Shown: positions 31,232 to 50,746 of the stretch, one piece after another
How the letters are laid out: each line of letters starts with the position of its first letter
How positions within the stretch are numbered: position 1 is the stretch's first letter
Assembly (NCBI GenBank): GCA_902801485.1
Contig: CADCIP010000004.1
Coordinates: 1-64,000, forward strand
Source: an uncultured Bacteroidales bacterium
GTDB taxonomy: Bacteria; Bacteroidota; Bacteroidia; Bacteroidales; Bacteroidaceae
DNA: 64,000 bases
Reading direction: 5' to 3'
Made by a program: the position numbers and the translations under genes
The notes under the pieces: generated by a model
Seen by the model: only the letters and a program-made list of their open reading frames with translations
The model's database searches: none
Told to the model about the DNA's origin: nothing

Positions 31232-34200
31232 CTACCTTCGCGGCTCTATTTCCTTCCTCACTTTACCATCTCTTATTACAATATTTATACCGGCTTGGGC
31301 ACGTGGAAGCCTACGTCCCTGCAGGTCGTAAATCAACTGATCACCACTCTGGTTCTCCTGATTGTTGATGAGTTCCAGAATACCATCAGCCTCATCCTCA
31401 TCCAGATAAGCAGCCTTCACCTCCGCTGATGCCGGTCCTTCAATATAAGCATGTAAGGCCTTCAGCGTAGAGTTAGCAGTACCCTTCTTCAGGACAGCTC
31501 CATCATTAACTACTCCGTATTTACCTTCCATATCGAAGGCAGGATCATAGTTAGAGTGCATCGTCCAGTCAGTAACATGAACGCCATTAGTTGCGTTCTG
31601 GGTTGCTTCTTCTGCAGCAACCACACTCACATCAGTGAATACAGGAGAATCAACTGCAGTGCCCAAATGCAGGATATAAGGCTGGTTCGCTTCAATGGTA
31701 TTCTTCTTCTCGAAGTAAAGAGAATAGCCATCTTTAGCGTTGTAAGTTACCACACTAAGCTGTGCCACCCAATCGTTGGGATTAGCTTCACGACCTGTTA
31801 ATGTCTCAACTGTGGTATTGAATGGCAGAGCAATGGTTGAGTAGCCGGATTTGAGGGTATTATTCACAAATACCTTTCTATATGTGCCTGCTGTATGGGT
31901 AGGTTCAACGGTAGAAGACAACGCCAGGAAATCATCGGGCCAATAAACCTCAATGTTGTATGTCTGACTCTTGGCAATGAAGTCATCATTGCCCTCCTGA
32001 GCCAGGGTCAAGGTAGTAGAACCAACCTGTAAGCCCGTTATGGTTATGGTCTCGCCATCACGCACAACGCTGATAACAGAATTATCACCATTGGTTATGG
32101 TAAAGCCCTGCTCGTTGTCTGCTCCCACACCCGTCACCATAATGGTGGCAGTGCCAGTGTATTCTACCCTACCGTTTGCACCTGTAAAATGCGTATCTGC
32201 TGCAAAGGCAGGCGTCTGCTTATTGAAGACAGAGAACTGACGGGTCAGCGTTGCAGGCAGATACTTGTAGTTACCAGCTTGAGAAGCCGTGATACCGACA
32301 TTAGAACCTGTTGCAACTGCTGTCAGCACACCTGTATTGGCATCTACAGTAATGGCAGCTGTATTGCCAGAAGAATAGGTAACTGGGGTAAGCCCAACAA
32401 CGGAAGTGGCTGTATTACCTTCCAACGTACTACCAACCTGCATTGTTGTTTCCAAACTTGAATTATCCCATATCAGCGTCTGTGGAAGCTTGTTGACAGT
32501 CACATTGAATGACTGACTCTTAGCTACATACTTGTAGGTTTCTGCCTGGGTAATAGTAACCGTGCCAGTACCAGCGTTCCAACCCGTCAATGTGTTCCCT
32601 GCAAAAGTCAACAGACCACCCTCGCGATTCTGCGACTCGTTCAGGTAACTTATATTAGAATATGATGCAGATAATGCGCCATCGCTATCAGCATTCATCA
32701 ACTCAACAGTAGCTGTGCCATCTACATTCACTGTCTTCGTGCTGAGAGCCATTACTGTTTTATTTTCCAACTTGCTGACGGTAAAGTCAAATGTCTGACT
32801 CGTGGCATTGTAGAGATTGGTTTTCTTCTGATAGATAGTCAATCGGGCTGTACCAGCATTCAAACCAGTAACAGTATTATTCTCCGGATTATAACTGATA
32901 ACACCACTTCCATTATTCACAGGCGAAGTCTGGGTATGACTGATTGTATAATAGAAGTCGGCATTACTATCAGCCGAAGGATAATCAGCACTTGTTCCTG
33001 TAAAGGCAAAGGCATTGGATATAGAGCCCTCCACCGTGGTTGCTGTGGCGGTGTTGTTGCCGCGTGCTATAGTTGTTGTATATTTCTGTGCAGTAGCCGA
33101 TATTGATATCGTCTGGCTATGGAACAAATCATACACTTTTATAGCTGCTTCCTCTGTGCCTAAATGATCTGGGTCAGGAGTGTAAGTAACTATAACGTCT
33201 CTTGAACCATTACTATTTGCAGTTCCTGTAATTGGATTAGGAGAGAAAGAGAAGCGAGGATTATTATTCATTTCTTCAATTGCAATATCACCCCCATTTG
33301 AGCTTCCCCATTCCACCGATATTGTAGCAGTTCCCGTCTGGTCAGTATAGATTGTCCCCAAATCTGATATGTTGCAAGATGCATTAATGTATGTCTTTCT
33401 TACAACATAAACATCAGAAAGATATTGGTAAAAATCTCCTGTAGAACTGAATGAGAATTTTCGCGCTCCCTCGGGCAAATTACGAACATAATGTATTTCG
33501 TTTTGGTCTCTGTTAAGGTTAAATTTCTGGGATCCGAGTTGATTCCCCTGTTCGTCCTTCCAAACAACAGTTACTGACTCGTTAACACCAGCCCAATTAT
33601 CATACCAAGCCTTAAATCTGAGTTCTTGTGGTATATAATCTACTGAGACTTCATAATCATTACCCAAACCAGTATACCAACTATAATTATTTCCATTTAG
33701 AAGTGATTCATGAAGATACGAATCCTCTTTCGCTACTGAATTAACTTGAATACGGAAAGTCGTTTCCGCAGCCTTATATTTATAGGTTTCGTCCTGCCTA
33801 ATAGTCCATATGTTTGTTCCGTCCGTAGTATTACCGGCTGTGATGGTATTACCGCTGATAGTGGCGATAGCTGTTGATCCTGAAGTCAAAGATACATGGT
33901 AGTCTCCATCAGAAACAGAGCTATACGACAATGTTACTTTATCATCACGAGCAACATTCTGTGAGTTTTTCTGCTCACCATCGAGCAGTACAACAATTGT
34001 ATTACTTATCTTACTTACCGTTATATCAAAAGAGTAACTTTGGGAGGCGGTGTACTGGTCAGTTGCAGGCTGTGAGAAGGTAATCTTGGCTGTTCCGGCA
34101 TTCTTCGCTTTTATGACGCCATCCTCGAATACGATAACTCTATTTGAAGCTATATTAACCAAAGATGGTGTTAACAATTGATCTATAATTGTTGCCTCTA

Positions 34201-36385
34201 TGGGGGTCGTTGTATTGTTCTGGCTACCTCCTGCAATACTGGGTGTTATGGTACCATCTACATCAACCGTCAAAGAAGGTAACGAAATATACAAAGTATT
34301 TGTAACCTTAGTTACTGTAACATCAATAGTTTTGGTTGCACCTGAATATTCGGTAGTTTCCGCCTGTGTGAAGGTGATAGTGGTTGAACCTTCGCCCACG
34401 GCCGTGATTATATTGTTCTCGGCATCGTATGTGGCCACACCCTTTTTGCTGTAAGATACTGCGGTATTATTGTTTCCCGTGTTTGTCACCACGTTTGTCC
34501 ACTCCTCGCCCACCTTCATAGCCTTACTTTCAGCAGCAATCGCAAAGGTGTTAGAGTGTTTGATAACATTTATAGTATATGGTGTGGTATTTCCATCAAG
34601 ATAGACTCCATCGCCAGGCTGTGATAGGGTAAGTGTAGTAGTTCCTGCAGAAAGGGCTGATATTGTGATAGTATTCGAATTGGTACGTTCCCAACTGATA
34701 CTATTACCCTCTTTTGTAACAGTAAAATTCTCGTTAACATTAATTAGACTGATTGTTGCCGATTCACCAAGTTCTAAACTGGGATTTGTGGCTTCGCCCC
34801 AACTTGGTGTAAAGGTTGCCTGTTTTCTTTCTCCAACGTTGAAATCACGAGTGATGGTTTCTGCAATGTAAGTACTGTCACCTGGCACACTAGCTGTAAC
34901 CGTACTGCTACCCAAACCTACTGTCGTAATAGAGCCATCAGCTGCAATGGTAAGTGCGTTTTCATTACTGCTGGTGTATGTTATCGTTTTAATACTAGTA
35001 ACAGACGCTGCAGATGATAATCCTGTAGCGCCCAGTACAAGATTCAGGTCCATATCTTCATCCACCCATTGTAGGTTCTGTTTCTTTTTAAACAGAGCAT
35101 ATAGTGTTTTTGTTCCAGCGGTTCCAATAGAACTGGTCAATGTTTCAGTATGACTAAGGTCTGTCGAGATAGGGTTGCCTGTATAAGAATCCGTAGTAAA
35201 CCATCCTAAAAACACGCAGTCGGTCTTGGGCTCTGCAGTAAATGTGGCTGTAGTAGTGTATGAGGTTGCACCAACATTCCCTACAACTCTATTTGTTACA
35301 GAGACTGTCGCTGTTCCAAGTGTCTCATTGCTTGAAACTGCTGTCGGAGAGAACAAGAAGACAGGCTTATAGATGGCAGTTATAGTTTTGTTTTCGGCTG
35401 TCGCTTGAATAGTAATTGTTTTGTTACTTATCGTTGTACCACTTGTCAATCCCACACCATTAGGTACATTCCATTGATAGAATTCGTAATTTGTTTTGTC
35501 TGATGCAGTCACAGTGGCTGTTTTAATAGTTCCTGCTTGGACCGTACTGGTCGTTGCATCAACATTATTGGCAACTGTTACATCATAGATTCTTCCATAT
35601 CTAGCCGTGATTGTTGCATTATTAGTAGCATTGAATTTTATTGTTTTATCTGTGCTTGAATAACCTGTTGCTAATGTAACACTAGAAGGATAATCCCATC
35701 CAAGAAACTCATACCCACTGGCCGGATCATTTGCTGTCGCCGTACCTTGTGTGTCAACACCTGCAGTGGCTGAACTCGTTGTACCATTAACAATGGTGAC
35801 AGTGTGAAGGATTTCTTCTTCATGAGAGAGTTTATAGGTAATCGTGACTTTATTGATGTGGAAGGGATGAGATGAAGCGAATGTCCGATTAGTTCCCCTA
35901 CACGTAATTGTTATTGGAGTTGTTACATTTGAACTTGATACATCAGTATAATTGCCATCACTCCTTTGAGGGTTAGTACTACTATCAGTAATATTCGTTT
36001 CACTGCCCCCTTCAATAGTCATATACCTCGCATAAAGACCAGATGAAGCATAGCCAACAGCACGTACTGTCATTGAAGTAACAGAAGACAATGTATAAAT
36101 ACCTTGAGCTGTCATCGTTACATTTCTCGTAAATGCATCATATTTAGTAGAACCTATGTTGAGGCAAGAACCGTTTGATTCATAAGAGCAATTACCATCT
36201 ATCTTAAAATTCACATTATCCTTAGTACAGCCATTATTACCTGCCATACTCTGAAGCTCAGTCCCGCTCAGTATAGTGGTTTTTGTTTCAGTAACAACCT
36301 TGTAGCCAGTCTTCTGTCCCCACGCCCCAATACTCCAGGCGAGGGTGGCGATATACATTATTATATATAGTAGCTTTTGCTTCAT
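31232..36385 (-). CDS. Giant Ig-like surface adhesin (1717 aa)
   Basis: The signal peptide ends near SIGAWGQ. Residues about 30-190 are a beta domain. InlB-like repeats occupy about 195-435 (YEFLGWDYPS, YEFYQWNVPN, CVFLGWFTTD). Many Ig-like (Big2-type) repeats occupy about 437-1480, each ending in a variant of Q-x-x-x-x-Y...F-x-V. A different beta module lies inside (about 890-1105). The last part has LKSGYSTIALPFNTTVE and a tail LIYDLQGRRLPRAQAGINI. Such proteins form long stalks on the cell surface. It closes the 50.7-31.2 kb locus and starts 4 nt after the preceding DUF4493 gene. A terminal adhesin or tip role is inferred. Confidence 0.85.
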   Translation of the reverse strand: MKQKLLYIIMYIATLAWSIGAWGQKTGYKVVTETKTTILSGTELQSMAGNNGCTKDNVNFKIDGNCSYESNGSCLNIGSTKYDAFTRNVTMTAQGIYTLSSVTSMTVRAVGYASSGLYARYMTIEGGSETNITDSSTNPQRSDGNYTDVSSSNVTTPITITCRGTNRTFASSHPFHINKVTITYKLSHEEEILHTVTIVNGTTSSATAGVDTQGTATANDPASGYEFLGWDYPSSVTLATGYSSTDKTIKFNATNNATITARYGRIYDVTVANNVDATTSTVQAGTIKTATVTASDKTNYEFYQWNVPNGVGLTSGTTISNKTITIQATAENKTITAIYKPVFLFSPTAVSSNETLGTATVSVTNRVVGNVGATSYTTTATFTAEPKTDCVFLGWFTTDSYTGNPISTDLSHTETLTSSIGTAGTKTLYALFKKKQNLQWVDEDMDLNLVLGATGLSSAASVTSIKTITYTSSNENALTIAADGSITTVGLGSSTVTASVPGDSTYIAETITRDFNVGERKQATFTPSWGEATNPSLELGESATISLINVNENFTVTKEGNSISWERTNSNTITISALSAGTTTLTLSQPGDGVYLDGNTTPYTINVIKHSNTFAIAAESKAMKVGEEWTNVVTNTGNNNTAVSYSKKGVATYDAENNIITAVGEGSTTITFTQAETTEYSGATKTIDVTVTKVTNTLYISLPSLTVDVDGTITPSIAGGSQNNTTTPIEATIIDQLLTPSLVNIASNRVIVFEDGVIKAKNAGTAKITFSQPATDQYTASQSYSFDITVSKISNTIVVLLDGEQKNSQNVARDDKVTLSYSSVSDGDYHVSLTSGSTAIATISGNTITAGNTTDGTNIWTIRQDETYKYKAAETTFRIQVNSVAKEDSYLHESLLNGNNYSWYTGLGNDYEVSVDYIPQELRFKAWYDNWAGVNESVTVVWKDEQGNQLGSQKFNLNRDQNEIHYVRNLPEGARKFSFSSTGDFYQYLSDVYVVRKTYINASCNISDLGTIYTDQTGTATISVEWGSSNGGDIAIEEMNNNPRFSFSPNPITGTANSNGSRDVIVTYTPDPDHLGTEEAAIKVYDLFHSQTISISATAQKYTTTIARGNNTATATTVEGSISNAFAFTGTSADYPSADSNADFYYTISHTQTSPVNNGSGVISYNPENNTVTGLNAGTARLTIYQKKTNLYNATSQTFDFTVSKLENKTVMALSTKTVNVDGTATVELMNADSDGALSASYSNISYLNESQNREGGLLTFAGNTLTGWNAGTGTVTITQAETYKYVAKSQSFNVTVNKLPQTLIWDNSSLETTMQVGSTLEGNTATSVVGLTPVTYSSGNTAAITVDANTGVLTAVATGSNVGITASQAGNYKYLPATLTRQFSVFNKQTPAFAADTHFTGANGRVEYTGTATIMVTGVGADNEQGFTITNGDNSVISVVRDGETITITGLQVGSTTLTLAQEGNDDFIAKSQTYNIEVYWPDDFLALSSTVEPTHTAGTYRKVFVNNTLKSGYSTIALPFNTTVETLTGREANPNDWVAQLSVVTYNAKDGYSLYFEKKNTIEANQPYILHLGTAVDSPVFTDVSVVAAEEATQNATNGVHVTDWTMHSNYDPAFDMEGKYGVVNDGAVLKKGTANSTLKALHAYIEGPASAEVKAAYLDEDEADGILELINNQENQSGDQLIYDLQGRRLPRAQAGINIVIRDGKVRKEIEPRR

Positions 36386-36389
36386 TATC

Positions 36390-37130
36390 TTAGTTTAGTG
36401 GGCGATATTCTTTGGTATCGAACTCGCCATTATGTGTGCCTTCACCTATCTGAATCAGAAGATCCGAGATGGATGAGGCTGTTATGTTTAGCGGATAGCT
36501 GATGCCAGCCTCCGCATTATTTATGGTGCCAGTTATTCCACTGGCGGGAATATCGGATACATAAGAGCCTGCCTTGGCAGAGCCCTTTATGGTATAGGTA
36601 ACTTTACCCAATTCATCTGGCATAGCATAGAGATTGCCATTGGCAGAGACGGATTTTCGCCCTATAGTTACGGAATAGTTTTCGTAGAGATTAGTAAAAC
36701 TCTCATCAAAAGAAACAACGATCTCCACATTCTTGGGCTTGCCCAATTCAATCTCTACCGTTTGGGTACCACCAAGAAACAATGAGAAAGAACCTGATGT
36801 TCCCTGATACCAGGGTGCGGCATCCTGTGCCGTCTTGCTGGTAGCAGTAAGTGTATAGGTTCCTGCAGGAACGATGGCAGAGCCATCAGTGAAGGTAATG
36901 GTGGAGGCTTCGCTTGTTTCTGTGTTGGTCAACGTATAGGTGTAATCAGCAATATTGCCGTCGGCTCTGGTAGTAACTTCTGTATAGAGTTGTACCTCCG
37001 AAAGAGAGAGCACAATACGACCGGTCTGAGCCTGCTGAGGGATAGGAGGCAAATCATCCGTTTGGCAAGCAGTAAGCATTACTGTTGACAACAGGAGCAG
37101 AACCTTAAGACAAACTATTGTACTCTTCAT
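36390..37130 (-). CDS. DUF4493 lipoprotein
   Basis: A 246-aa lipoprotein with lipobox LTAC (Cys22), a linker, GRIVLSLSEV and TTRA at 53-56, then a DUF4493 domain (about 60-240). Typical are the strand IVPAGTYTLTATSK, WYQGTSGSFSLFLGG and the anchor strand KPKNVEIVVSFDESFTNLYENYSV. Family function is unknown. A strong hairpin (37152-37194) lies in its 5' spacer, the only sizeable gap in this part of the locus. Confidence 0.8.
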   Translation of the reverse strand: MKSTIVCLKVLLLLSTVMLTACQTDDLPPIPQQAQTGRIVLSLSEVQLYTEVTTRADGNIADYTYTLTNTETSEASTITFTDGSAIVPAGTYTLTATSKTAQDAAPWYQGTSGSFSLFLGGTQTVEIELGKPKNVEIVVSFDESFTNLYENYSVTIGRKSVSANGNLYAMPDELGKVTYTIKGSAKAGSYVSDIPASGITGTINNAEAGISYPLNITASSISDLLIQIGEGTHNGEFDTKEYRPLN

Positions 37131-37151
37131 TTTTATTTCTTTTTTGTCTAT

Positions 37152-37194
37152 AAGTGAGTATGTCGGAGCGGTATTCGCTCAGACATACTCGCTT
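37152..37194. promoter_or_regulatory. Strong intercistronic hairpin
   Basis: The outer arms AAGTGAGTATGTC and GACATACTCGCTT pair over 13 bp (one G-U). One mismatch and an inner GAGCG/CGCTC stem follow, with loop GTATT. On the transcribed (minus) side the base of the stem is followed by A-rich, not U-rich, sequence, so it is a poor intrinsic terminator. It fits better as an mRNA-stabilising or processing element behind the DUF4493 gene at 37201-37956. Confidence 0.75.
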
Positions 37195-37200
37195 GGATTA

Positions 37201-37956
37201 TTAGTTAGCCTTTTCACCTGTAGCAGCGTCGATAGTGATAGTTTCTGCTGTTTCTGTGGTAAATTCAGTATCGTAAGTTACAGTAAGGGTAATAGTACCG
37301 TTTGTATTGGTTGTTACTTTAACCTGATACTCTATGGCAGCAGCAGGATTTGCGATGCTACCATGCAAAGTTTTGGCAGCGACACCGTTATACTTATAAT
37401 CCAGGTCATAGTTAATGATCTTGCCAGTACCGGCATAGAAGTAACCCGTTGTAGATTCGGTACTCAGCACGCGATTAGGAGCCTCTGACTGGCTGACAGT
37501 CAACTTAGCTTCGGTAATAGCCGAGAAATCTGCCAAGCCTGCCAAATCAGCCTTAACGCGACAGTTCTTTGCCTGTCCGCAAGCAACGGTAACGCTGTTG
37601 CTTCCCTTAACAAGAGTCTTGTCAACAGAACCAGAGTAGTAAGCCTGATTTGCAGTAATAGCGGCAGCCTCTGTGGCATAGTTACTAACAGCAATAGTGT
37701 AATCGCCTGCGGCATACTTCTGCGAGCTCAAAGCAGATACCTGAATCTGATCATTGTTTCCAACTTTAACATACCAAGAAGAGGTATTGGACACATTACT
37801 CTCAGCACGTGTAAACATTACATTGTCGTTAGTAATGTTCAAATCGATAGTTGCCTTCTCAGATGTTAAGGACTCGAACATGTCAATCTCGTTAGTACAA
37901 GATGTGAAACTTGCAGCAGCAAGAGCTGCAACGACTGTCATTAAATACTTTTTCAT
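37201..37956 (-). CDS. DUF4493 lipoprotein, possible major subunit
   Basis: A 251-aa lipoprotein: lipobox FTSC (Cys20), ATIDLNIT, FTRA at 48-51, then DUF4493 with YAAGDYTIAVSNYATEA, YYSGSVDKTLVKGSN and CGQAKNCRVKADLAG. It differs from its neighbours in high Ala/Thr and low charge, a composition seen in abundant surface subunits. It is set off by real spacers on both sides, with the hairpin behind it. That it is the main subunit is inference only. Confidence 0.75.
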   Translation of the reverse strand: MKKYLMTVVAALAAASFTSCTNEIDMFESLTSEKATIDLNITNDNVMFTRAESNVSNTSSWYVKVGNNDQIQVSALSSQKYAAGDYTIAVSNYATEAAAITANQAYYSGSVDKTLVKGSNSVTVACGQAKNCRVKADLAGLADFSAITEAKLTVSQSEAPNRVLSTESTTGYFYAGTGKIINYDLDYKYNGVAAKTLHGSIANPAAAIEYQVKVTTNTNGTITLTVTYDTEFTTETAETITIDAATGEKAN

Positions 37957-37999
37957 TTTCTTTCTTTATTTTAATTTTTTTCCTTTCCTATTTATTATC

Positions 38000-38791
38000 T
38001 CAATCCTCTAAAGGAACATCTATATACTCATATTGTACATCGAACTCGTCATCAAATGTAATGCCAAGGTCAATCTGTCCTTCAGTTGATTCACTCTTTC
38101 TGACATGGAGTCGGGTAACACCACCACGAGTCAGGACCAGGTCACGCTCGATATGTAAGGTACCATCCCATCCGGCAGAGGCATTCACAAGCAAGTGAAC
38201 CATACGTGTATTCCCTTCGGGGATGTTGTAGTATGCTACACTTCCAGAGGTAGTATTATCGAAACGCAAAGTCCTGCTGTCATCGGTGGTAACAGAATAA
38301 CCCATAGTGAAGTACGAGGTGAATGATTCGTCGAACTCCACACATAGACCTGCATTGGCCATGCGGCAATCAACGCTGACCTCGGTATTTTCTCCCGATT
38401 TGATATCGAAACTATCCGACTGGCCCCAATAGCGACGCTGTCCCCAACCATTGTTTGCAGCCTCTGCCTCGGAACTGGTGCAACTCTCTGCACTTACCAC
38501 ATAACCATTTCCTACTGGTTGGATACGGTCGTCCTGTGTGATATCAGCAAAGGGAATGTTTTCCCATATTTTCTCTCCGTTCTGGGTAAGGCTGACAATA
38601 AATATCTGCTGCTCTGCATCGGTAAGGTTTCGACCGGCACGTGTTGTCACCTCTACAACAAGGCTGTCCGTAGAAAGTCCCAAGGTGAAGGAGCCGCGCA
38701 TATTTGTAGGCAGACCGTTTTCCTCTGCTGTACAAGCCGTCAGCAAGCAAACAGCCAAAAGTGGGATAATATGTTGTATCTTAAAACTCAT
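38000..38791 (-). CDS. DUF4493 lipoprotein
   Basis: A 263-aa lipoprotein with lipobox LTAC (Cys20), GSFTLGLST, VTTRA at 48-52, and a DUF4493 domain. The domain has the AESCTSSEAEAANNGWGQRRYWG loop (also in the 40678 gene as ESCNEATAESSNDGWGEPRYVG) and the strand CRMANAGLCVEFDESFTSYFTMGYSV. It is therefore closest to the paralogue two genes upstream. It starts 7 nt after the stop of the fimbrillin-type gene. Confidence 0.8.
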   Translation of the reverse strand: MSFKIQHIIPLLAVCLLTACTAEENGLPTNMRGSFTLGLSTDSLVVEVTTRAGRNLTDAEQQIFIVSLTQNGEKIWENIPFADITQDDRIQPVGNGYVVSAESCTSSEAEAANNGWGQRRYWGQSDSFDIKSGENTEVSVDCRMANAGLCVEFDESFTSYFTMGYSVTTDDSRTLRFDNTTSGSVAYYNIPEGNTRMVHLLVNASAGWDGTLHIERDLVLTRGGVTRLHVRKSESTEGQIDLGITFDDEFDVQYEYIDVPLED

Positions 38792-38798
38792 TTTCTTC

Positions 38799-41559: not shown

Positions 41560-42275
41560 GAATTAATCGGATTATTATCAATCGTCATATCGTCGATAAC
41601 GATGTCAATACCACCAGAATTAGCATCGGAATCGTAATGATAAGTAAGCGTATATAACTTCCCTGCATTTACATCGAGATAGCTGATGGCCGAATGGGAA
41701 CTGGTACGTCCGTCGGTGTTGGTAGCAGAGAGGGCATAAGAGAAACCTCCGTCAGCCAAATCAAAGTATGCACGTTCACCCTGACGGATTACAACCGTAC
41801 GACCGCCACTCTTCAGACGGAAGGTGTAGGCACTGAAAAGCATATCCCAAAGGTCTGGCAACTGCAGCCCTACGGCATAGTTTGTCATAGGAACACGCAT
41901 CTGCAAGCGCTTTACCATATCATACTCCATTTCTACGGAAGTTTCCTGAAAATAGCATGCCTCACCTTTACCATCGTTGGCTGATTTCCAGTTTTCCTGG
42001 TTGTCGGTGTAGGCTTGGATATAAAACGTACCTGGTTCTAATACAATCTTCTGAGGAACAGAACCTGCATCATAGTGACGATAAGGTGCTCTGTTTGCAT
42101 CGAGGATATCAACTACGAGGTCTGCATCGCAAGCTCGGGTGACCTCCATCTGGGGACGGCCGTTAAGCAGAAGGTCAAGTTCCAACACAGCCTTACCGCC
42201 TGTTGGTGCCACCTCATCCTGTTGACAGGCTGTAAACAGGACTATGCTTAGAAGTATGTATATCGGATATTTCAT
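41556..42275 (-). CDS. DUF4493 lipoprotein
   Basis: A 239-aa lipoprotein with lipobox FTAC (Cys17), KAVLELDLLL, EVTRA at 44-48, and a DUF4493 domain with LEPGTFYIQAYTDN, ACYFQETSVEMEYDMVKRLQMRVPM and PDLWDMLFSAYTFRL. The shortest member of the set. It begins 2 nt after the stop of the DUF4493-module gene and overlaps its downstream neighbour by 4 nt. Confidence 0.8.
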   Translation of the reverse strand: MKYPIYILLSIVLFTACQQDEVAPTGGKAVLELDLLLNGRPQMEVTRACDADLVVDILDANRAPYRHYDAGSVPQKIVLEPGTFYIQAYTDNQENWKSANDGKGEACYFQETSVEMEYDMVKRLQMRVPMTNYAVGLQLPDLWDMLFSAYTFRLKSGGRTVVIRQGERAYFDLADGGFSYALSATNTDGRTSSHSAISYLDVNAGKLYTLTYHYDSDANSGGIDIVIDDMTIDNNPINS

Positions 42276-42277
42276 GG

Positions 42278-44101
42278 TTATGGCTTAGCGTATTTAAATG
42301 ATAAGGAATAAATATGAGAACAGGTTTGACCTGCCCCATAGCTATTGTGACAGGTAATGGTGGTAAGAACCTGATTGTTGTCCCTTAAAACATTGGTTGT
42401 TCCTGAATGAAGGTGGTCGGTATCTCTAAAAGGAGTACCAGCTTCTTCTATGGAAAGAATCTCCCTATTACCTACCGAGACACTAAAGGTGGTACCAACT
42501 GTTAAAGTATGAACATTAACACTATAGTCGGCACAGAAACAGGTACCCATAGGAATAGAAACGGAAGATGAGTTTGTTATACTCTGACTACCTGTAGAAA
42601 GGTGTCCCAAACGTACATCGGAATCAAACCAGTCAACTCCTGAAGAAGAAATCCATTCATCATGGCTGGCCAGATTGAGAGAGTAAGGCAAACCGGTGAT
42701 GATGAACTCCTTCTGTGCACTGACAGAAACACCATCGAAAGTTAGGTCACCCCTCAAAACGTGGGCAGCAGAACGAACTGTCTGACCTGCCATATCACCG
42801 AACTCGTATGTATTACCGGTAGTCACATTGGACGTCTCACCATCGTAAGTGTAGGTGAATGTATGCGTCCACTTATCACCACGAAGCAAAGCGTCACTGA
42901 CGTTTACAGAAACAGAAGGTTCGTAGATGGTAAGTCTGTCACAAGCATTGGCACCATTAATATCTCCTGTCAAATACATCGAATAAGAGGTATAGCCTGT
43001 AACGGTTACCTTTAGATTTTGGGGCGCATCGATTGTGAAATCGCGGTCACTGACAAATGTAGCTGTTCCATCATCCTCGACAAAGTAGTAAGAGGCCTTA
43101 TAATTTCCATGAGGAAGGTAGGGCCAGGTATCTTTGTTGGCATCCGCATTGTACTCGGACAGTAAAGCACCTGTTCCCTCTACAGCACGTACGGTAGCGC
43201 CGGCAGCATTAGTAATGACCGTCCGCCATTTCTTGCCGGGATAACTCTCGGTAATAATGAGGTTGGTACCTACGAGGAGTCCATTCCTGTCGAACTGGTG
43301 CATAGGGATTACCATAGCAACAGGCAACCAGGAAAGGGGTATGGTCTCGTCCATCGTTACTGTTTCGACTTCTACCTTACTGATATCAACACCTAAAGCA
43401 CTTTCAGGATCAGGCAAAGAAAGTGTAACAACAGCATGGTCAGCCGCTTTCAGGGTATCAGGGAAATCTTCGCTGGTAAGTTCACAGTTGACCTCACGGT
43501 CATCCTCCATCTTCAGTTTTCCCCAGAAACGCAAAGTAACATGGTTCCCTGATTTAACATAAACACTCCGGGCAGGTTCTCCTTTCGTGATAGCCATACT
43601 GTAATTGCCAACACAAACATATAGTGCATAGTCGCTGTAATAACGATCGAATCGAGCCTGTTCCTCGGCATCGCGCCCGAAGTTCGCAGAAACCAGTGCA
43701 TTACCTACTCGTGCTGTTATACTGGACTCTGTAGTCTGGTCTTTTACAATCTCTACATTATCAGTACCAATATAATAAGGTGCATCGATAGCCAACAAGT
43801 TGTCCCGACCATAAGTGACAGAGACATCGTAACGACCTACAGGCAGCGTAATTTCTTCCTCGGTGAAGACATCATTATAAACAGCACGTCCTGCGGCATT
43901 TACAATTAGCAAGTGGAAGTCAGCAATGCTGGGAGCACCTATATCACCGGGAGTGGAACGCGTGGTAGCCGTATTTATGTTCGCCAACGACAATTGCAAG
44001 CGTCCGCCCTCGCCCATTGGATTAGGTTCTTCTTCGCTGACACAAGCCATTAAGCTGAATGTCAGACAAAGCAACAGCATGCGGATTATATTTTTATTCA
44101 T
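42278..44101 (-). CDS. DUF4493 lipoprotein with shared C-terminal module
   Basis: A 607-aa lipoprotein, start ATG 44101 (MNKNIIRML); the codon 12 nt upstream is TTG. Lipobox LMAC (Cys20), GRLQLSLAN, TTRST at about 46-50. The DUF4493 domain (about 55-260) has LPVGRYDVSVTYGRD and YYIGTDNVEI. The C-terminal half (about 265-607) repeats the module of the fimbrillin-type protein: WPYLPHGNYKASY, GYTSYSMYLTGDI, ANACDRLTIYEP, LTFDGVSVSAQK and ITGLPY. The same module on two kinds of anchor implies a modular assembly. It overlaps the PCMD gene by 8 nt. Confidence 0.8.
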   Translation of the reverse strand: MNKNIIRMLLLCLTFSLMACVSEEEPNPMGEGGRLQLSLANINTATTRSTPGDIGAPSIADFHLLIVNAAGRAVYNDVFTEEEITLPVGRYDVSVTYGRDNLLAIDAPYYIGTDNVEIVKDQTTESSITARVGNALVSANFGRDAEEQARFDRYYSDYALYVCVGNYSMAITKGEPARSVYVKSGNHVTLRFWGKLKMEDDREVNCELTSEDFPDTLKAADHAVVTLSLPDPESALGVDISKVEVETVTMDETIPLSWLPVAMVIPMHQFDRNGLLVGTNLIITESYPGKKWRTVITNAAGATVRAVEGTGALLSEYNADANKDTWPYLPHGNYKASYYFVEDDGTATFVSDRDFTIDAPQNLKVTVTGYTSYSMYLTGDINGANACDRLTIYEPSVSVNVSDALLRGDKWTHTFTYTYDGETSNVTTGNTYEFGDMAGQTVRSAAHVLRGDLTFDGVSVSAQKEFIITGLPYSLNLASHDEWISSSGVDWFDSDVRLGHLSTGSQSITNSSSVSIPMGTCFCADYSVNVHTLTVGTTFSVSVGNREILSIEEAGTPFRDTDHLHSGTTNVLRDNNQVLTTITCHNSYGAGQTCSHIYSLSFKYAKP

Positions 44102-45818
44102 ATAATAGTTCAATATTATCTATTTGCAAGAGTGATTCTTCTCCGCCTGTGAAGTAGTCACCATATTTACTGCTGCTGGCTACTACGATAATATACTTCG
44201 GCTGACGGTCTTTAACCCGGTAGTCCAGAGTGATCGTTTCTGTTGTCCATGAAGTTACATCCTCACCCTTGGTCATTTGGGCAAAAGCAATCAGGTGAGG
44301 GTCGTTCATGTCAAAGAGGTGCAAGGCACTGGGACGGGTACGAATGAGATATGGACACTGAATATTAATCCCCTTCGAGGTTGTAAAAGTTACAGGTTCC
44401 CAGTCACCAAGTGCAATATACACGCTACATGAATCTGGTCGTCCCTTGAAGTTCTCGTACATCTCTTTTGAAATGTATGTGCCATAGGCTTCTTTCCAGT
44501 CGCCACCTGTACGAGTAATGGGAGAACTTTTATACTTATAGTCAAAACGCATTTTCGTGGGGAAAGAAGTAAAGGGGCGACCGAATGAAAGAACGCCATT
44601 GGAACCATCGGTCTCAAGATAGTCGCCCGTAAAGATATTGCCAGCCGCAAACTTAATGACAATGTACTTCGACTGGAGGTTTGCAAAACGACGACCATCT
44701 TCATCTTTGTACGTACTGTTGCTGTTACCAACAGTTGTTGCTCCGGCATTACCTGTACTCCAATATGGTACATCACCCTCTCCCCAAGGTTGCCAGAGCT
44801 CCTTTCCTGAACTACCGGTAACACTACTCCACCTATCGAAACTACCATTCTCCAAGTGCTGTTCACCTACTGTCGTGAATGTTTTTTCTTCACTTTTAGC
44901 TGTACCGGCAAAAACACGGTATGAATAGGTGGTAGCAGGACGAATGCCTGTAAGCTCAGCTGTAAAACGTGTACCATTTACCAAGACGTGAGAAGCAGTT
45001 ATTAATGTCCATTCATTGGAATCCGAAGCGCGATATTCCACAACTGGCTGCGTATTCATTGGAATGGTTCCGCTGATAGTAGCCGACACACTGCGTGCAA
45101 AGGCTGTTGCTTCGATGCTTTCTTTCGCCTCGGTCTTGTAAACAAACACACGCCATGTCTGTATCTCATCAACCCCAGCCATTTTTACCTGGAAAGTACG
45201 CATCTGAGAGAAGTCAAAGGTCTCAGATTTTGTAGGATCAGGCATAACAGTACCATGTATGCCACCCAAAGAAAACTTGTCGGCATGTAAAGTACCAAGG
45301 GATTTATTGGAAGCAACATATACAACAACGTTCTGATTGACAGGGTCGATGATGGCATTACCTACCTGACCTGTCAGATAGACTTCCCGCTTAATAATCT
45401 GATGAACACGTACCTTCCAACGGTATGTCTGATAGGTAGTCAGCACAAAAGTAACCTCGTGAGAAAAATCCAATGTTGGAGCATTTGAGCCGCTTGCAGA
45501 GAACGAAGACTCGGGGAAGTCCGTCTGAACGTCTTCAACAGTTATCTTTGCATCAGAAGTAACATCCATGCGTTTTACACGAAGCTTTGTAATATCTACC
45601 CGATCATCAACATAGAGATCAACCACACGCTTATCATTGTCAATAGACGCAGCAGCATAGCCTTCGCCTGATTCGTCACACTGTCCTTCCACCTCGAATG
45701 CAGTTATCACCGCCTTTCTGATTGGGAGAGGCAGGTCATCCTTGATAGCACATGAGGTAAATACCACGAGTGCAACCATTAGGAAACGGAAGGGATGAAT
45801 ATAACGAGAATGCATCAT
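44094..45818 (-). CDS. PCMD-domain lipoprotein
   Basis: A 574-aa lipoprotein (FTSC, Cys about 23). Two beta repeats of the kind seen in DUF5018 proteins follow, FSHEVTFVLTTYQTYRWKVRVHQ and FSQMRTFQVKMAGVDEIQTWRVFVYK. Next is a fibronectin-III-like segment (IRPATTYSYRVFAGTAKSEEKTF) and a PCMD domain from LENGSFDRWSSV to LLQIDNIELLYE. Surface-exposed glycan or protein binding is inferred. ATG 45818; it overlaps the upstream OMP gene by 4 nt. Confidence 0.8.
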   Translation of the reverse strand: MMHSRYIHPFRFLMVALVVFTSCAIKDDLPLPIRKAVITAFEVEGQCDESGEGYAAASIDNDKRVVDLYVDDRVDITKLRVKRMDVTSDAKITVEDVQTDFPESSFSASGSNAPTLDFSHEVTFVLTTYQTYRWKVRVHQIIKREVYLTGQVGNAIIDPVNQNVVVYVASNKSLGTLHADKFSLGGIHGTVMPDPTKSETFDFSQMRTFQVKMAGVDEIQTWRVFVYKTEAKESIEATAFARSVSATISGTIPMNTQPVVEYRASDSNEWTLITASHVLVNGTRFTAELTGIRPATTYSYRVFAGTAKSEEKTFTTVGEQHLENGSFDRWSSVTGSSGKELWQPWGEGDVPYWSTGNAGATTVGNSNSTYKDEDGRRFANLQSKYIVIKFAAGNIFTGDYLETDGSNGVLSFGRPFTSFPTKMRFDYKYKSSPITRTGGDWKEAYGTYISKEMYENFKGRPDSCSVYIALGDWEPVTFTTSKGINIQCPYLIRTRPSALHLFDMNDPHLIAFAQMTKGEDVTSWTTETITLDYRVKDRQPKYIIVVASSSKYGDYFTGGEESLLQIDNIELLYE

Positions 45819-46729
45819 AGATAGAAGGTCATTCCTATGTGAATACTAAAGAAATTAAATTTGAAATTAGCTCCGCCGCTATGACTCTTACCATATTCGT
45901 ACTCGGTGGAATTTGGATGAATGTTCTTAAAACTACTCCATTTGTAATCTACGCCAAGCACGCCAATAGACGTTTCTACGGCAGCGAAATCGGTGACGAA
46001 GATACATAAACCGGGGCTTATACCTAATTGTAACTTGTGAACTGTCTCGTAAGTTCCGTCAAATGTATTGAGTATAGGATCATCGCTATAACTACCTGTG
46101 CTATTCTTGCCATTGGCATGCGAATAGGTTGCACGCACTTCAGCAAAAGCACCGAATATCTTGCTTCCGAAGAGCGGCATGTAGTTGCGCATGAAAAGAC
46201 TTGCCTCATGTCTGTGCTCCAAATAATAGAGATTATCTAAACTGATGTTTAAATCCTCACCCAAGTTGACATCCAAGTCGCCCAGATAAAGGTATTGCCT
46301 GCTGTAATTGTAACGCATACCAACAGCCAGATTCTTTGCCACGAAATAACCTACATAAGGAGAAACAGAGAATAAATGTCCCTCCATATTCAGATTCTTC
46401 AGTACCAGGAGGTTCTGGTTTTCATTTTCCCACTCACGGTAATTAACTGTAGCACCACACATCCACATACCCTTTGGGATGAATGGAGCCTTCAGTTCGC
46501 CACGATCTACACGCTGGATATGTCTTTTTTTGAGATTCTTCTCATAACTGTCGCGTACCTTATTATTATATATATGTTTAGGCTGCTTACCGCTTATCAT
46601 TTCCGAGTAAGACTGGCCCCCATCGTACGCCCCAACGGGATATTGATTATATTGCGCGAATACTGCTACCGGCATGAAAGCCAGCAGCAGTATCAGCATT
46701 ATACTATGATTCTTACGTTTTTGTGTCAT
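45815..46729 (-). CDS. Outer-membrane beta-barrel protein of the surface locus
   Basis: A 304-aa exported barrel. Signal peptide ends near AVFAQ (about residue 26), then a short periplasmic stretch (KPKHIYNNKVRDSYEKNLKKR). Amphipathic strands follow and the chain ends IHIGMTFYL with a terminal aromatic/hydrophobic residue. It could be the outer-membrane partner of the DUF4493/PCMD lipoproteins. ATG 46729 is placed 1 nt after the upstream stop (46731-46733); a longer frame would lie wholly inside the neighbouring gene. Confidence 0.8.
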   Translation of the reverse strand: MTQKRKNHSIMLILLLAFMPVAVFAQYNQYPVGAYDGGQSYSEMISGKQPKHIYNNKVRDSYEKNLKKRHIQRVDRGELKAPFIPKGMWMCGATVNYREWENENQNLLVLKNLNMEGHLFSVSPYVGYFVAKNLAVGMRYNYSRQYLYLGDLDVNLGEDLNISLDNLYYLEHRHEASLFMRNYMPLFGSKIFGAFAEVRATYSHANGKNSTGSYSDDPILNTFDGTYETVHKLQLGISPGLCIFVTDFAAVETSIGVLGVDYKWSSFKNIHPNSTEYEYGKSHSGGANFKFNFFSIHIGMTFYL

Positions 46730-46730
46730 G

Positions 46731-48530
46731 CTACTGTACAGTAGGTTCGCCATACTCGAACGAGAAGTCATCGATATTGAGTACACTAGAATCCGATCCA
46801 TAGAAGTAGTCACCCCACTTGCTTGCAGAGCATACGATAATCATATGGGTTGGCTTCTTCGTCGTTGAATAATAAACCAATGGGATGTTAAACTCTTGCC
46901 ATGCACCACCGCTACTTGTGTTGCGAGTCATCTGACCATAGGCGATAACTCGCGGATCGGTTGCCCAATTAAGACTTGTGGTCAGCTCATATCCATCGCT
47001 GTTACTTGCATTTGCAACTTTGAACTTTTCTGTTACCAACGCACAGAATATCTGACACTCATCATTTGAATTCTTTGCAGGAGCACCGACTCCAGAAGGC
47101 TGGCTGCCTCGGTTAATTGAACCTGGAGTATAACAATAGTAACCCTTCAGTGCTGATGGACGAGAGGTGAATGGTACGCCCCACTCGAGTTTTGCGCCCT
47201 TGGTTGTGATAAGGCCAATGAAATCACCAGTGAACAAACTTGCAGCAGCCAACTTAATTGAAGCCCAGGCTGTAGCGAGCTTTGCAGAAGAGTTTCCACT
47301 ACGCTTGAAGGAAGTATCCTGTGTAGTTACACTACCAATAAAGGTTGCAGCACCGGCATTACTTGAGTTCCAATACTTAGGATCGGCAGGATTGCCACAG
47401 ATAGAAATCTTACCATCAACATACCAGTCTTCAAATCCAGAGTTATAAATTTGCTCTTGCGCTTCTGTTGTGAAGTTCACTTCATTACTGTTAATAGGCT
47501 CGTCAGTACCATTGTTATAAACAAAGCGGTATGTATAAGCTGTAGAAGCTGATAGTCCCTTCAGCTTATAGGAGATGGTACCGTTATTGTTGGTCAGGGC
47601 GTTGTTAGCCACTGTAGTCCACTCGCTGTCGGTCTTCTTCCTCCACTGCAGGGTTACGTTCTCGAAGTCATTCTTTTCCAGAGAAGCCTTACCGGAAAGT
47701 TCTGCAAAGGTGCTCCACGAAGATGCATTCTTTGCCTGGAGGGAGGTAAGATTCTTGCGAGGCACTTGAATAGTGTATGTGTATGTCTGGGTAGCATCGT
47801 CAGTTACAACTGTGATGTTACCCTGGCTACCTACAGGATCTCCAACACTATAATTGATAATGATGTGATCGCGAGCCTTTACGTTCTTTACTTCATTGGT
47901 CTGACTCTTGGCAGCATCGTTATTTACTGTAACTTTCAAATTGAGGTCAGCAACGGGGAAATAGGCTGAACCAGTAGTCTGCCCCATAACAAAGGTGCGT
48001 GCCGTGACGCCAGCCTGTGCTGAAGTAACCTCAGCTTTGGCGCTCTCGAAATACTTATTGAAGTTATCGTCAAAATTCACAGTTACCTTTACATTAGCCA
48101 ACGTACAGGTGACAGAGGCAGTGTTTGCCTCTTTACGCTTGATGGTAACACTTGTCGAACCTGCATAATAAGGAGCATCGAAAGCAGAATTACTACCATC
48201 CCAGTTGGCAGAGTGTGCAACTATGGTGTAAGTTCCTTCTGCCAATTTTATGTTACCTTTAAGCGTTTCGGAATTATTCCAATCATTGGTTTCCAGAGAA
48301 ACGCCATCGCCACTCTTGGCAACTTGTCCGTTAGCATCCAGAACAGCAACATATAACTTCTTGGCATTATAACCGGTAGGAACATCGGCACGAGTGTAAG
48401 TTGAAACAATCGTTTCGACCTTCAGTTTCAGATAACCTTCTCCCTGCTCTGCAACCTCTATATCATTGGTACAAGAGGCTACGAATAACGTAGCGCAGAG
48501 CAAACTAAACATGGAAAATATCTTTTTCAT
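46731..48530 (-). CDS. DUF4493 plus PCMD lipoprotein
   Basis: A 599-aa lipoprotein: lipobox VASC (Cys20), GYLKLKVETI, YTRADVPTG (TRA 46-48), and a DUF4493 domain (about 50-240) with LAEGTYTIVAHSANW, APYYAGSTSVTIKRKEANTASVTCTLANVKVTVNFDDNF. A fibronectin-III-like linker (LSASTAYTYRFVYNNGTDEP) and a PCMD domain from IYNSGFEDWYVDG to VLNIDDFSFEYG follow. It joins the two main families of the locus in one chain. Followed after 1 nt by the OMP gene. Confidence 0.85.
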   Translation of the reverse strand: MKKIFSMFSLLCATLFVASCTNDIEVAEQGEGYLKLKVETIVSTYTRADVPTGYNAKKLYVAVLDANGQVAKSGDGVSLETNDWNNSETLKGNIKLAEGTYTIVAHSANWDGSNSAFDAPYYAGSTSVTIKRKEANTASVTCTLANVKVTVNFDDNFNKYFESAKAEVTSAQAGVTARTFVMGQTTGSAYFPVADLNLKVTVNNDAAKSQTNEVKNVKARDHIIINYSVGDPVGSQGNITVVTDDATQTYTYTIQVPRKNLTSLQAKNASSWSTFAELSGKASLEKNDFENVTLQWRKKTDSEWTTVANNALTNNNGTISYKLKGLSASTAYTYRFVYNNGTDEPINSNEVNFTTEAQEQIYNSGFEDWYVDGKISICGNPADPKYWNSSNAGAATFIGSVTTQDTSFKRSGNSSAKLATAWASIKLAAASLFTGDFIGLITTKGAKLEWGVPFTSRPSALKGYYCYTPGSINRGSQPSGVGAPAKNSNDECQIFCALVTEKFKVANASNSDGYELTTSLNWATDPRVIAYGQMTRNTSSGGAWQEFNIPLVYYSTTKKPTHMIIVCSASKWGDYFYGSDSSVLNIDDFSFEYGEPTVQ

Positions 48531-48573
48531 TTCTTTATCTTCTTAATGTCGTTTATATAAAAGTCAAAACTTA

Positions 48574-49866
48574 TTATTCTGTTATAGTTACTTTAACTGT
48601 ACCTGTTTTAGTATTACCTTCCATATCTGTTACTGTCATCAAAAAATTATGCTCTCCTGAAAGAAGACCTAAGAACAAGTAGAACTGTCCGACAGGGAAT
48701 GTGTAATCTGTGTCACCTTGAGCAGGTACGGTAATTACCTTATCAAGACCACTTAAGAATGCTACCAGGTTCTGGTTGCCTACAACCTCACAGCCATTTA
48801 CGAGGTCAACACCTGGATATTCGTCTGCAACGCCAACCAATGACTCCATCATCTCATCACTAGATGAGTTTACTTTAACCATAACACTCTTCAAACCATT
48901 ATCTGCATGCATCACAACATCACCAGAAGTAGGATCAGCTGTAGCAGATTCCTCAGCAGACAAAGTCACAGGAGCAGGGAGAGTAAGTGTAATCAGGTCT
49001 GCACCGGGATTGTCACCAGGATTGTCACCGGGATTGTCACCAGGTTCGTCGTTTTCTGCATCAGTAACATCTACTACAATTTCATCACCAGTTTCGGTAA
49101 AAATAACATTAGCATTGATAGTGATTGTCGTAATCTTACCTGTCTTGGGATCCTCGGGCAGCACTCCAAAGTTGATAACCAATTCGTCACCACCACGGAA
49201 GTACTTGGAATCGTCGTCATAATGTACATCAAGCATCGATTTTTCCAAATACTGTTCAGAATTAATCGTAGTACCATCCGACTTCAGTTTACCTGAGAAG
49301 TCCAACGTCAGTCTTTCTGTTTCATTTTCGAACAACCAGTAATAATCTTTACGGTTACTACTGCTGACGAAATCCAGTACCGTCGAACTACCGTCATTAA
49401 TTGTTACTGTCCAAGATTCGAACTGTGTCAGGAATTCATCATCGTAATTTACACTTATATGGCTATTCTTCATCTTACAAACCACCTTTACATTTGTGGT
49501 AATGCCATTTTGGATTTCCATAGGTTCTGTTCCCTCAAAATAGGGAGAGGTCCTTTTCTTCGCACATTTACCTGCGGTGTGAGAAGTAACTGAATAATTA
49601 CCCACGGGCAATTCCACTGATGCCGGAACTTCCTCCACAGATTCGTACTTTACAATATATGTACTGTCTGCGTTCACCACCTCAACAGGAAAGTCCGTAA
49701 CTTCCTCTTGGGAACGGGTAAACGTTTCAGGCTCAAGCAGAGAAACGTTGAGAGCCATACGACCGGTTGCTGTATTCTCCAAGCCGCTCTTTATATCTTC
49801 GCTAACACACGAAGCGAAGCCTACGACGGTCATCAAACCAACGATGAATATATTTCTTATTTTCAT
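48574..49866 (-). CDS. DUF4493 lipoprotein with DNPG linker and second domain
   Basis: A 430-aa lipoprotein with lipobox FASC (Cys20), GRMALNVSLL, FTRS at 49-52, a classic DUF4493 domain (about 55-275) with ELPVGNYSVTSHTAG, SPYFEGTEPMEI and CKMKNSHISVNYDDEF. A linker of about three GDNP units (12-bp tandem repeat at 49002-49044) and a C-terminal domain of about 140 residues (LITLTLPAPVTLSAEES to TVKVTITE) follow, which looks Ig-like. The linker length could vary by repeat slippage. Confidence 0.8.
   Translation of the reverse strand: MKIRNIFIVGLMTVVGFASCVSEDIKSGLENTATGRMALNVSLLEPETFTRSQEEVTDFPVEVVNADSTYIVKYESVEEVPASVELPVGNYSVTSHTAGKCAKKRTSPYFEGTEPMEIQNGITTNVKVVCKMKNSHISVNYDDEFLTQFESWTVTINDGSSTVLDFVSSSNRKDYYWLFENETERLTLDFSGKLKSDGTTINSEQYLEKSMLDVHYDDDSKYFRGGDELVINFGVLPEDPKTGKITTITINANVIFTETGDEIVVDVTDAENDEPGDNPGDNPGDNPGADLITLTLPAPVTLSAEESATADPTSGDVVMHADNGLKSVMVKVNSSSDEMMESLVGVADEYPGVDLVNGCEVVGNQNLVAFLSGLDKVITVPAQGDTDYTFPVGQFYLFLGLLSGEHNFLMTVTDMEGNTKTGTVKVTITE
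49002..49044. repeat. In-frame 12-bp repeat encoding GDNP units
   Basis: Three full copies and a partial one of CACCGGGATTGT-type units (plus strand), with alternating CCGGG/CCAGG. Twelve is a multiple of three, so copy changes alter the linker length but not the frame. Confidence 0.85.
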
Positions 49867-49906
49867 TTTTCAAATCAATTATTAGGAATCAAACTTCGTG
49901 TTAATT

Positions 49907-50746
49907 TTAAATCCACTCTACAGGTACTTCAATGGAAACAACACGGTCGTTAGTCGTTTCGTCAACAGTAATTGTAAGAGTGAAAGTGCCGTATTCGTTG
50001 GAAGTGTAGTGAGGTTTAACGGTCAGTTTGTAAGCCTCATTGCGTTTCAACGTGAATTTACCTGATGCTGTAGCAGTTGTAGATGTGTTACCATTCTTAT
50101 CCACATGTACATATTCCTCCTTGACTTTCAGTGAGATAGCATAGGATATTTCCTCACCGCTTTCCTTCAGCTTGACGTACCAAGGTTCTTTATCAGTTTT
50201 TGACCAAGGTAGTTTCTGACTTCCAAGTGCTTCTGTACCTGAAAACTCGGTGCTGTAATCATCATAGTACTTAGCCATATCTGCATCATACTCTACAAGA
50301 ATTTTACCACAGGTGGGAGTACAATTCACATTTACAACTTTCTCTTCATCGGGATTTAGGATAAATGAAGTGCTGCCTTCAACACGGAAAGTATTACGAC
50401 TGGCAGATTCCTCAGAACCATAAAATGCCTTGATCGAATAAGAGTTGTTGGAGCCTATAGTGCGCTCGAATTCTAAATCACTCTGAGGACCTTGCCATGT
50501 CTGGAGTACATTAGTTCCTTGCAATAACTGAACCGTGTAATTCCTTGTGTTTCGGTAATCAGCCTCATTGAGGGCACGTGTTTCCTCATCGAAACTGGCA
50601 TCGGCATTCAAATTAAGAACAATCTTACCCGTTTCTGACTTGTCCAGATTATCTGACGGCTTCGTATCAAAGTCGTGCTCCGAACATGATGCGAAGAGTG
50701 CAATTGCACTCAATCCCATGCAAAAGATTAATTGTTTTTGTTTCAT
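49907..50746 (-). CDS. DUF4493 lipoprotein, first gene of the surface locus
   Basis: A 279-aa lipoprotein: lipobox FASC (Cys21), GKIVLNLNAD, ETRA at 55-58, and a DUF4493 domain with FERTIGSNNSYSIKAFYG, LNPDEEKVVNVNCTPTCGKILVEYDADMAKYYDDY and a C-terminal strand EYGTFTLTITVDE. ATG 50746 begins the signal peptide; an in-frame ATG lies upstream at 50782. A -7 box lies at 50796-50803 and a 21-bp repeat array farther upstream. Confidence 0.8.
   Translation of the reverse strand: MKQKQLIFCMGLSAIALFASCSEHDFDTKPSDNLDKSETGKIVLNLNADASFDEETRALNEADYRNTRNYTVQLLQGTNVLQTWQGPQSDLEFERTIGSNNSYSIKAFYGSEESASRNTFRVEGSTSFILNPDEEKVVNVNCTPTCGKILVEYDADMAKYYDDYSTEFSGTEALGSQKLPWSKTDKEPWYVKLKESGEEISYAISLKVKEEYVHVDKNGNTSTTATASGKFTLKRNEAYKLTVKPHYTSNEYGTFTLTITVDETTNDRVVSIEVPVEWI

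Follow-up and report, generated by a model that had tools for sequence, protein, structure and literature searches.

What would be built on the surface of a Bacteroidales cell by a nearly gapless run of thirteen genes, many of them for DUF4493 lipoproteins? The question is raised by positions 31232-50746 of a 64,000-nucleotide stretch (the window; positions 1 to 64,000 of the forward strand of contig CADCIP010000004.1, assembly GCA_902801485.1) from an uncultured Bacteroidales bacterium of the Bacteroidaceae. A check of the open reading frames (ORFs), their coordinates, and their strand confirmed thirteen co-oriented minus-strand genes, here named g1 to g13, with successive intergenic distances of 40, 43, -41, -4, -20, 2, -4, -8, 7, 43, 70, and 4 nucleotides (nt). 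The first-pass annotation had taken the cluster for a candidate pilus-like or fibrous structure. The reading that we prefer, with a probability of about 0.58 as judged from sequence, is that the cluster encodes a surface assembly resembling the type V pilus, with a base formed by a small β-barrel (g4) and a PCMD lipoprotein (g5) and with g2, g3, g6, and g9 as tip-type subunits. A literature search, which left subscription journals and preprints outside, found no paper on DUF4493, PF14900, PF13201, or the PCMD domain ("putative carbohydrate metabolism domain").

Recurrence of the gene order

Pfam places DUF4493 (PF14900) above its cut-off in eight of the thirteen genes (g1, g2, g3, g6, g7, g8, g10, and g12) and PCMD (PF13201) in g3 and g5, in agreement with the earlier description of PCMD on one DUF4493 protein and on a separate lipoprotein. 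Neither g9 nor g11 has a DUF4493 match above the Pfam cut-off. Nine DUF4493 genes had been counted at first; eight stand by Pfam, and the ninth, g11, is recognised only by the DUF4493 profile built in this analysis (E ≤ 1e-5). The presumed fimbrillin-type lipoprotein, g9, has sub-threshold Pfam matches only, and the profile of its N-terminal half aligns in hhalign at 93% over 73 columns with three adjoining fimbrillin-type proteins of another locus (L067), two of which were checked as Mfa_like_1. In the source genome, which is ~85% complete, all eight DUF4493 matches are confined to this cluster.

A survey sampled 201 genomes of the family and found some DUF4493 match in 25 and one above the cut-off in 24; 23 cluster regions outside the window genome were examined. 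A core order recurs in them, namely g1, g2, g3 (DUF4493-PCMD), g4 (barrel), g5 (PCMD), and then a long and a short DUF4493 gene. The first five genes are contiguous in 20 of the 23 clusters and are followed by the long and then the short gene in 19; no other gene lies inside the conserved run, and g4 and g5 are both present in every cluster. The four departures are two regions cut by contig ends (L053 and L055) and two (L060 and L066) that share a variant arrangement, in which different DUF4493 proteins come first. Genes were called as the longest ORFs, with the order re-checked on stop-to-stop frames, and were labelled by the best-scoring profile, the label g9 covering both the g6 and the g9 types. 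Since the gene order recurs in other genomes, the locus is beyond chance; the first-pass annotation had named a lack of co-occurrence as a result that would refute its structural reading, and the survey found this contiguity instead.

When titled genomes were scanned with the alignment of g3, 402 stretches encoding a relative were found, some of which may hold PCMD-only or DUF4493-only relatives or have been counted twice. In the best 80 of the 402 (the named loci), g1 to g5 are contiguous in 72, and the long-short pair is present as well in 62; the remaining eight comprise six cut by contig ends, a lone g3 relative (L101), and one locus without g4 and g5 (L128), of which only a short stretch is left. 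The titles of these 80 include Bacteroides, Phocaeicola, Parabacteroides, Proteiniphilum, and many Prevotellaceae or Bacteroidaceae metagenome-assembled genomes, and many of them point to ruminant and poultry guts; cultured commensals that carry the cluster include Phocaeicola barnesiae (L149) and Bacteroides caecigallinarum (L142). Because the named loci were picked by g3, they are unable to test the co-occurrence of g3 itself, which the 201-genome survey can do; the two sets partly overlap (L042 and L124, for example, come from one stretch of a single contig). When 345 genomes were drawn across the phylum, DUF4493 exceeded the cut-off in the window's own genome only and was sub-threshold in one other, and the two other family members listed in that draw were negative. 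The distribution of the cluster within the family is patchy but recurrent.

The barrel g4 is a constant companion of the DUF4493 genes. It has no Pfam match itself, and 3 of the 28 members of its family alignment match OMP_b-brl weakly (best 0.0047). The g4 profile matches 31 of the 201 survey genomes. Every one of the 24 DUF4493 genomes is among them, with E ≤ 4e-86, whereas the matches in 7 of the 177 genomes without above-cut-off DUF4493 are weaker (1e-68 to 2e-5). In six of these seven, which belong to one genus (L226-L231), the g4 relative adjoins a g5-like PCMD lipoprotein in a stretch that has no DUF4493 gene; the seventh and weakest (L235) is not beside a PCMD lipoprotein. Barrel and PCMD lipoprotein thus make up a separate unit, and in this cluster the DUF4493 genes are combined with it. 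The earlier suggestion of the barrel as a partner is borne out by this companionship, and its role in the outer membrane stays a proposal. A second, diverged g4-type barrel lies among the short DUF4493 genes of some expanded clusters (L051:4225-5073; also L049, L104, L106, and L131).

Pilin-like precursors and their heads

According to two papers (PMC5789003, PMC4789730), type V pilins are made as precursor lipoproteins that lose their first strand when a protease cuts behind an Arg or Lys; the sites given there for P. gingivalis are Arg49 in Mfa1, Arg43 in Mfa3, and Arg54 or 53 in Mfa4, whereas Mfa2, the anchor, stays uncleaved. The protease is named as a surface clostripain in a review (PMC12632263).

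In sequence, the DUF4493 proteins resemble these precursors in having a lipobox and a putative cleavage site. A lipobox expression is positive in 435 of 523 DUF4493-type proteins, the misses including wrong starts and near-threshold signals, and in the window all ten pilin-like subunits possess a lipobox and keep the Arg site (g7 and g10 by eye). The motif [TS]R is situated 13-45 residues past the lipid Cys in 364 of the 435 lipoproteins, at +26 to +36 in 330 of the 364 and with Ala next in 255, compared with 14 of 65 PCMD lipoproteins and 22 of 104 other lipoproteins encoded in the loci; the DUF4493 stretches shuffled in 200 rounds averaged 110 and never exceeded 135. An Arg or Lys site is found in 42 of 43 FimA-type proteins, 252 of 261 members of the DUF4493 groups, 15 of 41 Mfa2-type proteins, and 12 of 44 g5-type proteins. 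As most DUF4493 proteins keep the Arg site, an assignment as Mfa2-type anchors is disfavoured. In addition, 303 of the 435 DUF4493-type lipoproteins vs 16 of 99 other lipoproteins have two or more acidic residues no further than five positions from the Cys, a rough indicator of export to the surface. The source genome encodes a clostripain-family C11 match with a lipobox (L223:1387-2538), the location and specificity of which we infer; it also has a C25 match and another pair of C11 matches.

Extra C-terminal domains are carried by g2, g3, g6, and g9. In g2, this region has sub-cut-off PKD and Big_9 matches in Pfam; in g3, four solved structures (PDB 4jrl, 4het, 3s30, and 3hbz) match over the PCMD part only. 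The heads of g6 and g9 are related (31% over 305 columns, 2e-22) and sit on two different carriers. The g6-slot members longer than 680 amino acids (aa) end in PCMD instead (99.85%, 14 sequences), and a Pfam scan of five g6-slot proteins found PCMD above the cut-off in two, just below it in one, and absent in two. These last two, from L053 and L059, align to the window-type head and their genus-mates carry the PCMD type, so that the heads do not simply follow genus. A hidden PCMD in the g6 head itself was not supported (hhalign 0.3-0.7%). In a search of NCBIfam, g6 matched the FimD tip adhesin far below threshold (0.032, residues 5-54 only). Over 63 complete loci, the mean identity is highest for the barrel (0.54), followed by g5 and g3, and lowest for the g6-slot head (0.27, lowered in part by unrelated head types) and for the short subunit after the g6 slot (0.33). 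The pattern would fit an inner base and outer, varying tips.

Profile comparison points to the same relatives. With signal peptides removed, hhalign aligned the combined DUF4493 profile at 75% with 41 Mfa2-type and at 85% with 43 FimA-type proteins, compared with 0.1-0.2% for PCMD and g5, 0.1-0.3% for reversed profiles, and 96% for the known relatives FimA and Mfa2 against each other. Before these runs, 4 of 30 FimA-type and 8 of 30 Mfa2-type ORFs were dropped as fragments, wrong frames, or another class, and proteins without a recognised lipobox were then dropped, leaving 24 of 26 and 19 of 22, respectively. Three of the eight dropped Mfa2-type ORFs and the source genome's own Mfa2 match make up a set of four, which was added back for the 41-protein comparison. 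The profiles hold at most 70 sequences for the DUF4493 groups g2 and g3 and 60 for g4 and g5, and the combined profile was built from every second sequence. With the N-terminal extension removed, the combined match to Mfa2 stays at 73% (54, 87, 49, and 9% by group). Two proteins match both families: L067:3158-3988 (Mfa2 2e-8; DUF4493 1.3e-4, below the cut-off) and one on contig 368 of genome G041 (Mfa2 2e-15; DUF4493 2.7e-4, below the cut-off). Six Mfa2-like proteins, two of them picked for matching DUF4493, gave 55-93%, a figure that we do not use as evidence. The fimbrillin cluster L067:1274-4758 contains two Mfa_like_1 genes, the Mfa2/DUF4493 double match, and a β-barrel with sub-threshold OMP_b-brl matches.

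Several results weigh against a pilin-like assembly. The single DUF4493 groups vary from 8% (g1) to 87% (g3) against Mfa2 and from 60% (g2) to 88% (g1) against FimA. Removal of the N-terminal extension lowers the FimA match to 0.4-26% (3% for the combined profile), so the match rests mainly on the extension and the first domain. The set of four Mfa2-like proteins, chosen without reference to DUF4493, gives 1.5-58% with controls at 0.3-1.4%. Sequence-profile searches found few proteins with FimA (8 of 478 at E < 1e-3; reversed 0 of 478; others 1 of 154), and those with Mfa2 (6 of 478) were not clear of the reversed control (3 of 478). No solved pilin was found by the g1 profile at E ≤ 10, the best match of which is a 33-residue stretch of titin (2e-6), and the g6 profile has no notable match to a solved structure at E ≤ 1. 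Pfam shows no Mfa2, P_gingi_FimA, or Fimbrillin_C match among the thirteen cluster proteins, and the cluster has no clear shaft subunit. Furthermore, when 422 closer pairs are taken, conservation is equal in the barrel (0.57) and the PCMD part of g3 (0.58). Taken with the preceding results, it is likely but not proven that DUF4493 shares a remote common ancestor with the type V pilins and is an outlying branch of their superfamily, as far as profiles can tell. The first idea of DUF4493 proteins as pilus-like subunits is upheld in part, through their resemblance to type V pilin precursors in profile and in the Arg site behind the lipid Cys.

The proposed assembly, its competitors, and accessory features

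On the reading that we prefer, the DUF4493 proteins and g9 would be made as lipoproteins and exported to the surface, where an Arg-specific protease of the clostripain type would cut the [T/S]R site 25-36 residues past the lipid Cys. The cut would remove the first β-strand of a pilin-like fold, and the opened groove would be filled by a strand of the next subunit. Tip-type subunits (g2, g3, g6, and g9) would bear the binding heads (PCMD or else an unclassified domain), with glycans as the presumed ligand, and the short subunits g1, g7, g8, and g10-g12 would serve as shaft or adaptor. The PCMD lipoprotein g5, which lacks the cut site, and the barrel g4 would retain the fibre at the outer membrane; this fibre may be short and heteropolymeric. 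A bolder reading, which we hold less likely than not, is that the DUF4493 systems form a class apart among the surface organelles of Bacteroidales: a short fibre in which several different pilin-like subunits with exchangeable binding heads would polymerise on a dedicated base of outer-membrane barrel and PCMD lipoprotein, a base that described type V pili lack and that is also found as a stand-alone two-gene unit.

The strongest competitor, in our judgement unlikely, keeps the pilin-like cut site and dispenses with polymerisation: the DUF4493 proteins would be surface lipoproteins that are trimmed by clostripain and released as soluble binding proteins. A fragipain-type clostripain cleaves and releases numerous surface lipoproteins, according to the review (PMC12632263), and the cluster encodes several different subunits, none obviously the major one, in which no C-terminal donor strand was identified. 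However, the fixed order, the constant barrel, and a PCMD lipoprotein that is mostly without the cut site suggest a complex retained at the membrane. Unlikelier still is a non-polymerising complex for binding surface glycans, in which PCMD or other heads would bind the glycan, the DUF4493 domains would act as spacers, and the barrel would be the base. PCMD occurs in g3, in g5, in some long subunits, and in a neighbouring gene (29662-30966), and its solved relatives are labelled putative or hypothetical glycoside hydrolases; but the conserved run holds no other genes, the flanks being annotated unsystematically so that a nearby uptake system is possible, and the pilin-like Arg site would be left unexplained. 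We regard as improbable a strict type V pilus locus, with one DUF4493 protein as lipid-retained anchor or an Mfa2-type anchor encoded elsewhere, which would accord with the profile similarity, the Arg site, the double match in another genome, and the one above-cut-off Mfa2 match of the source genome (on another contig; FimA has none there), but not with the Pfam result for the cluster proteins or with an Arg site kept in all ten pilin-like subunits.

Coordinates of the genes and of the upstream box in the window, with matches (E-values in Pfam) and sites
Feature	Position	Strand	Length (aa)	Domain match	Site	Description
-7 box	50796..50803	-				Bacteroides-type, TAATTTTG, upstream of g1; pattern match, by itself no evidence of function
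g1	49907..50746	-	279	DUF4493 2.4e-39	Cys21, TR57 at +36	stand-alone DUF4493 lipoprotein, opens the core; conserved slot
g2	48574..49866	-	430	DUF4493 2e-42	TR51 at +31	DUF4493, linker, and C-terminal domain, possibly Ig/PKD-like
g3	46731..48530	-	599	DUF4493 8.5e-45, PCMD 1.1e-41	TR47 at +27	DUF4493, fn3-like, and PCMD fusion; proposed tip-type subunit
g4	45815..46771	-				small outer-membrane β-barrel, proposed base partner; start uncertain (GTG at 46813 also open)
g5	44094..45818	-	574	PCMD 2.9e-38	no [TS]R after Cys23	PCMD lipoprotein; proposed lipid-anchored base
g6	42278..44113	-	611	DUF4493 3.2e-29	TR52 at +28	DUF4493 and unclassified C-terminal head of ~350 aa; proposed tip-type subunit
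g7	41556..42275	-	239	DUF4493 4.7e-14	lipobox and TR at +30 (by eye, translation)	short DUF4493 lipoprotein
g8	40678..41559	-	293	DUF4493 8.2e-23	TR46 at +30	short DUF4493 lipoprotein
g9	38799..40685	-	628		TR46 at +25	fimbrillin-like N-terminal half and head related to the g6 head
g10	38000..38791	-	263	DUF4493 8.3e-26	lipobox and TR at +31 (by eye, translation)	short DUF4493 lipoprotein
g11	37201..37956	-	251		TR50 at +30	divergent DUF4493-like lipoprotein
g12	36390..37130	-	246	DUF4493 7.2e-14	TR55 at +33	short DUF4493 lipoprotein
g13	31232..36385	-	1717	sub-threshold Flg_new_2 and T2SS-T3SS_pil_N		immunoglobulin (Ig)-like repeat protein

The Ig-like protein g13 had been cast at first as tip or stalk, a part that was not borne out. 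It has neither a lipobox nor a DUF4493 domain, and a g13-type match is present in 4 of the 23 survey regions and 12 of the 80 named loci, counts that are affected by stretches ending before the g13 position and by matches that may reflect the C-terminus alone. None of the 12 positive named loci is titled Bacteroides, Phocaeicola, or Parabacteroides. It is probably accessory, and the proteins with extra C-terminal domains (g2, g3, g6, and g9) are likelier tips. The C-terminus of g13 (31235-31531) resembles nine other places in the source genome (E 2.8e-6 to 5e-3), one of them inside the window ORF 25054-26964. NCBIfam has no match and Pfam no sorting-tail match for a type IX sorting tail on g13; given the SprA gene of the source genome and a C-terminus common to nine other places, such a tail is possible. 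Directly downstream of g13 are a PCMD lipoprotein (29662-30966), an OMP_b-brl_2 barrel (28801-29634), and a calycin-like protein (28150-28788), and a similar PCMD-barrel pair lies near the DUF4493 clusters of L060, L063, L110, and L135.

The single promoter-like box noted ahead of the cluster was found again: one -7 box precedes g1, without a -33 match in the pattern used, and within the cluster the -33/-7 pattern matches at four distinct places, every one of them in coding sequence. A 21-bp tandem repeat of 3.7 copies, containing an imperfect palindrome, is located upstream of g1 at 51090-51166. No phase-variable promoter could be demonstrated: of the inverted repeats ahead of g1, the longest belongs to this tandem repeat, and others of 13 and 10 nt, spaced 133 and 239 nt apart, respectively, also occur, with their chance expectation not computed.

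Comparison with known systems

If true, the proposed assembly would give DUF4493 a testable function and a link to pilin chemistry, and common gut bacteria would possess it as an adhesion structure. With its constant barrel-PCMD pair, the cluster also prompts one to ask whether a base in the outer membrane is possible for pilin-type fibres of Bacteroidota.

The known families are resembled to different extents. In the case of the PCMD proteins (PF13201), the likeness lies in the C-terminal domains of g3 and g5, but the four solved structures cover only the PCMD part of g3, and the function of PCMD is putative. In the case of the Mfa_like_1 fimbrillins (PF13149), it lies in the N-terminal half of g9, the profile of which aligned over 73 columns, whereas g9 has no direct Pfam match and ends in a head akin to the g6 head. 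The Mfa2/FimB anchor family (PF08842) shares profile similarity with DUF4493, mainly in the first domain, and has the double match in L067; however, the DUF4493 proteins of the window carry the Arg site, which most Mfa2-type proteins lack, and have no Pfam match to this family above the cut-off. The window g5 is without the Arg site, as are most Mfa2 anchors. Compared with the type V pili (FimA/Mfa1) of Bacteroidales, the cluster has in common the lipoprotein precursors, in sequence an Arg/Lys site behind the presumed first strand, the tip-like subunits with C-terminal domains, a remote profile similarity, and a clostripain-family protein in the genome, but it is without the Mfa2-type anchor and the FimA-type shaft and has a constant barrel, a PCMD lipoprotein, and several DUF4493 paralogues in a fixed order. 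As the cluster contains no Mfa2-type anchor, we class it as a variant, which probably works like a type V pilus, rather than as a member of that group.

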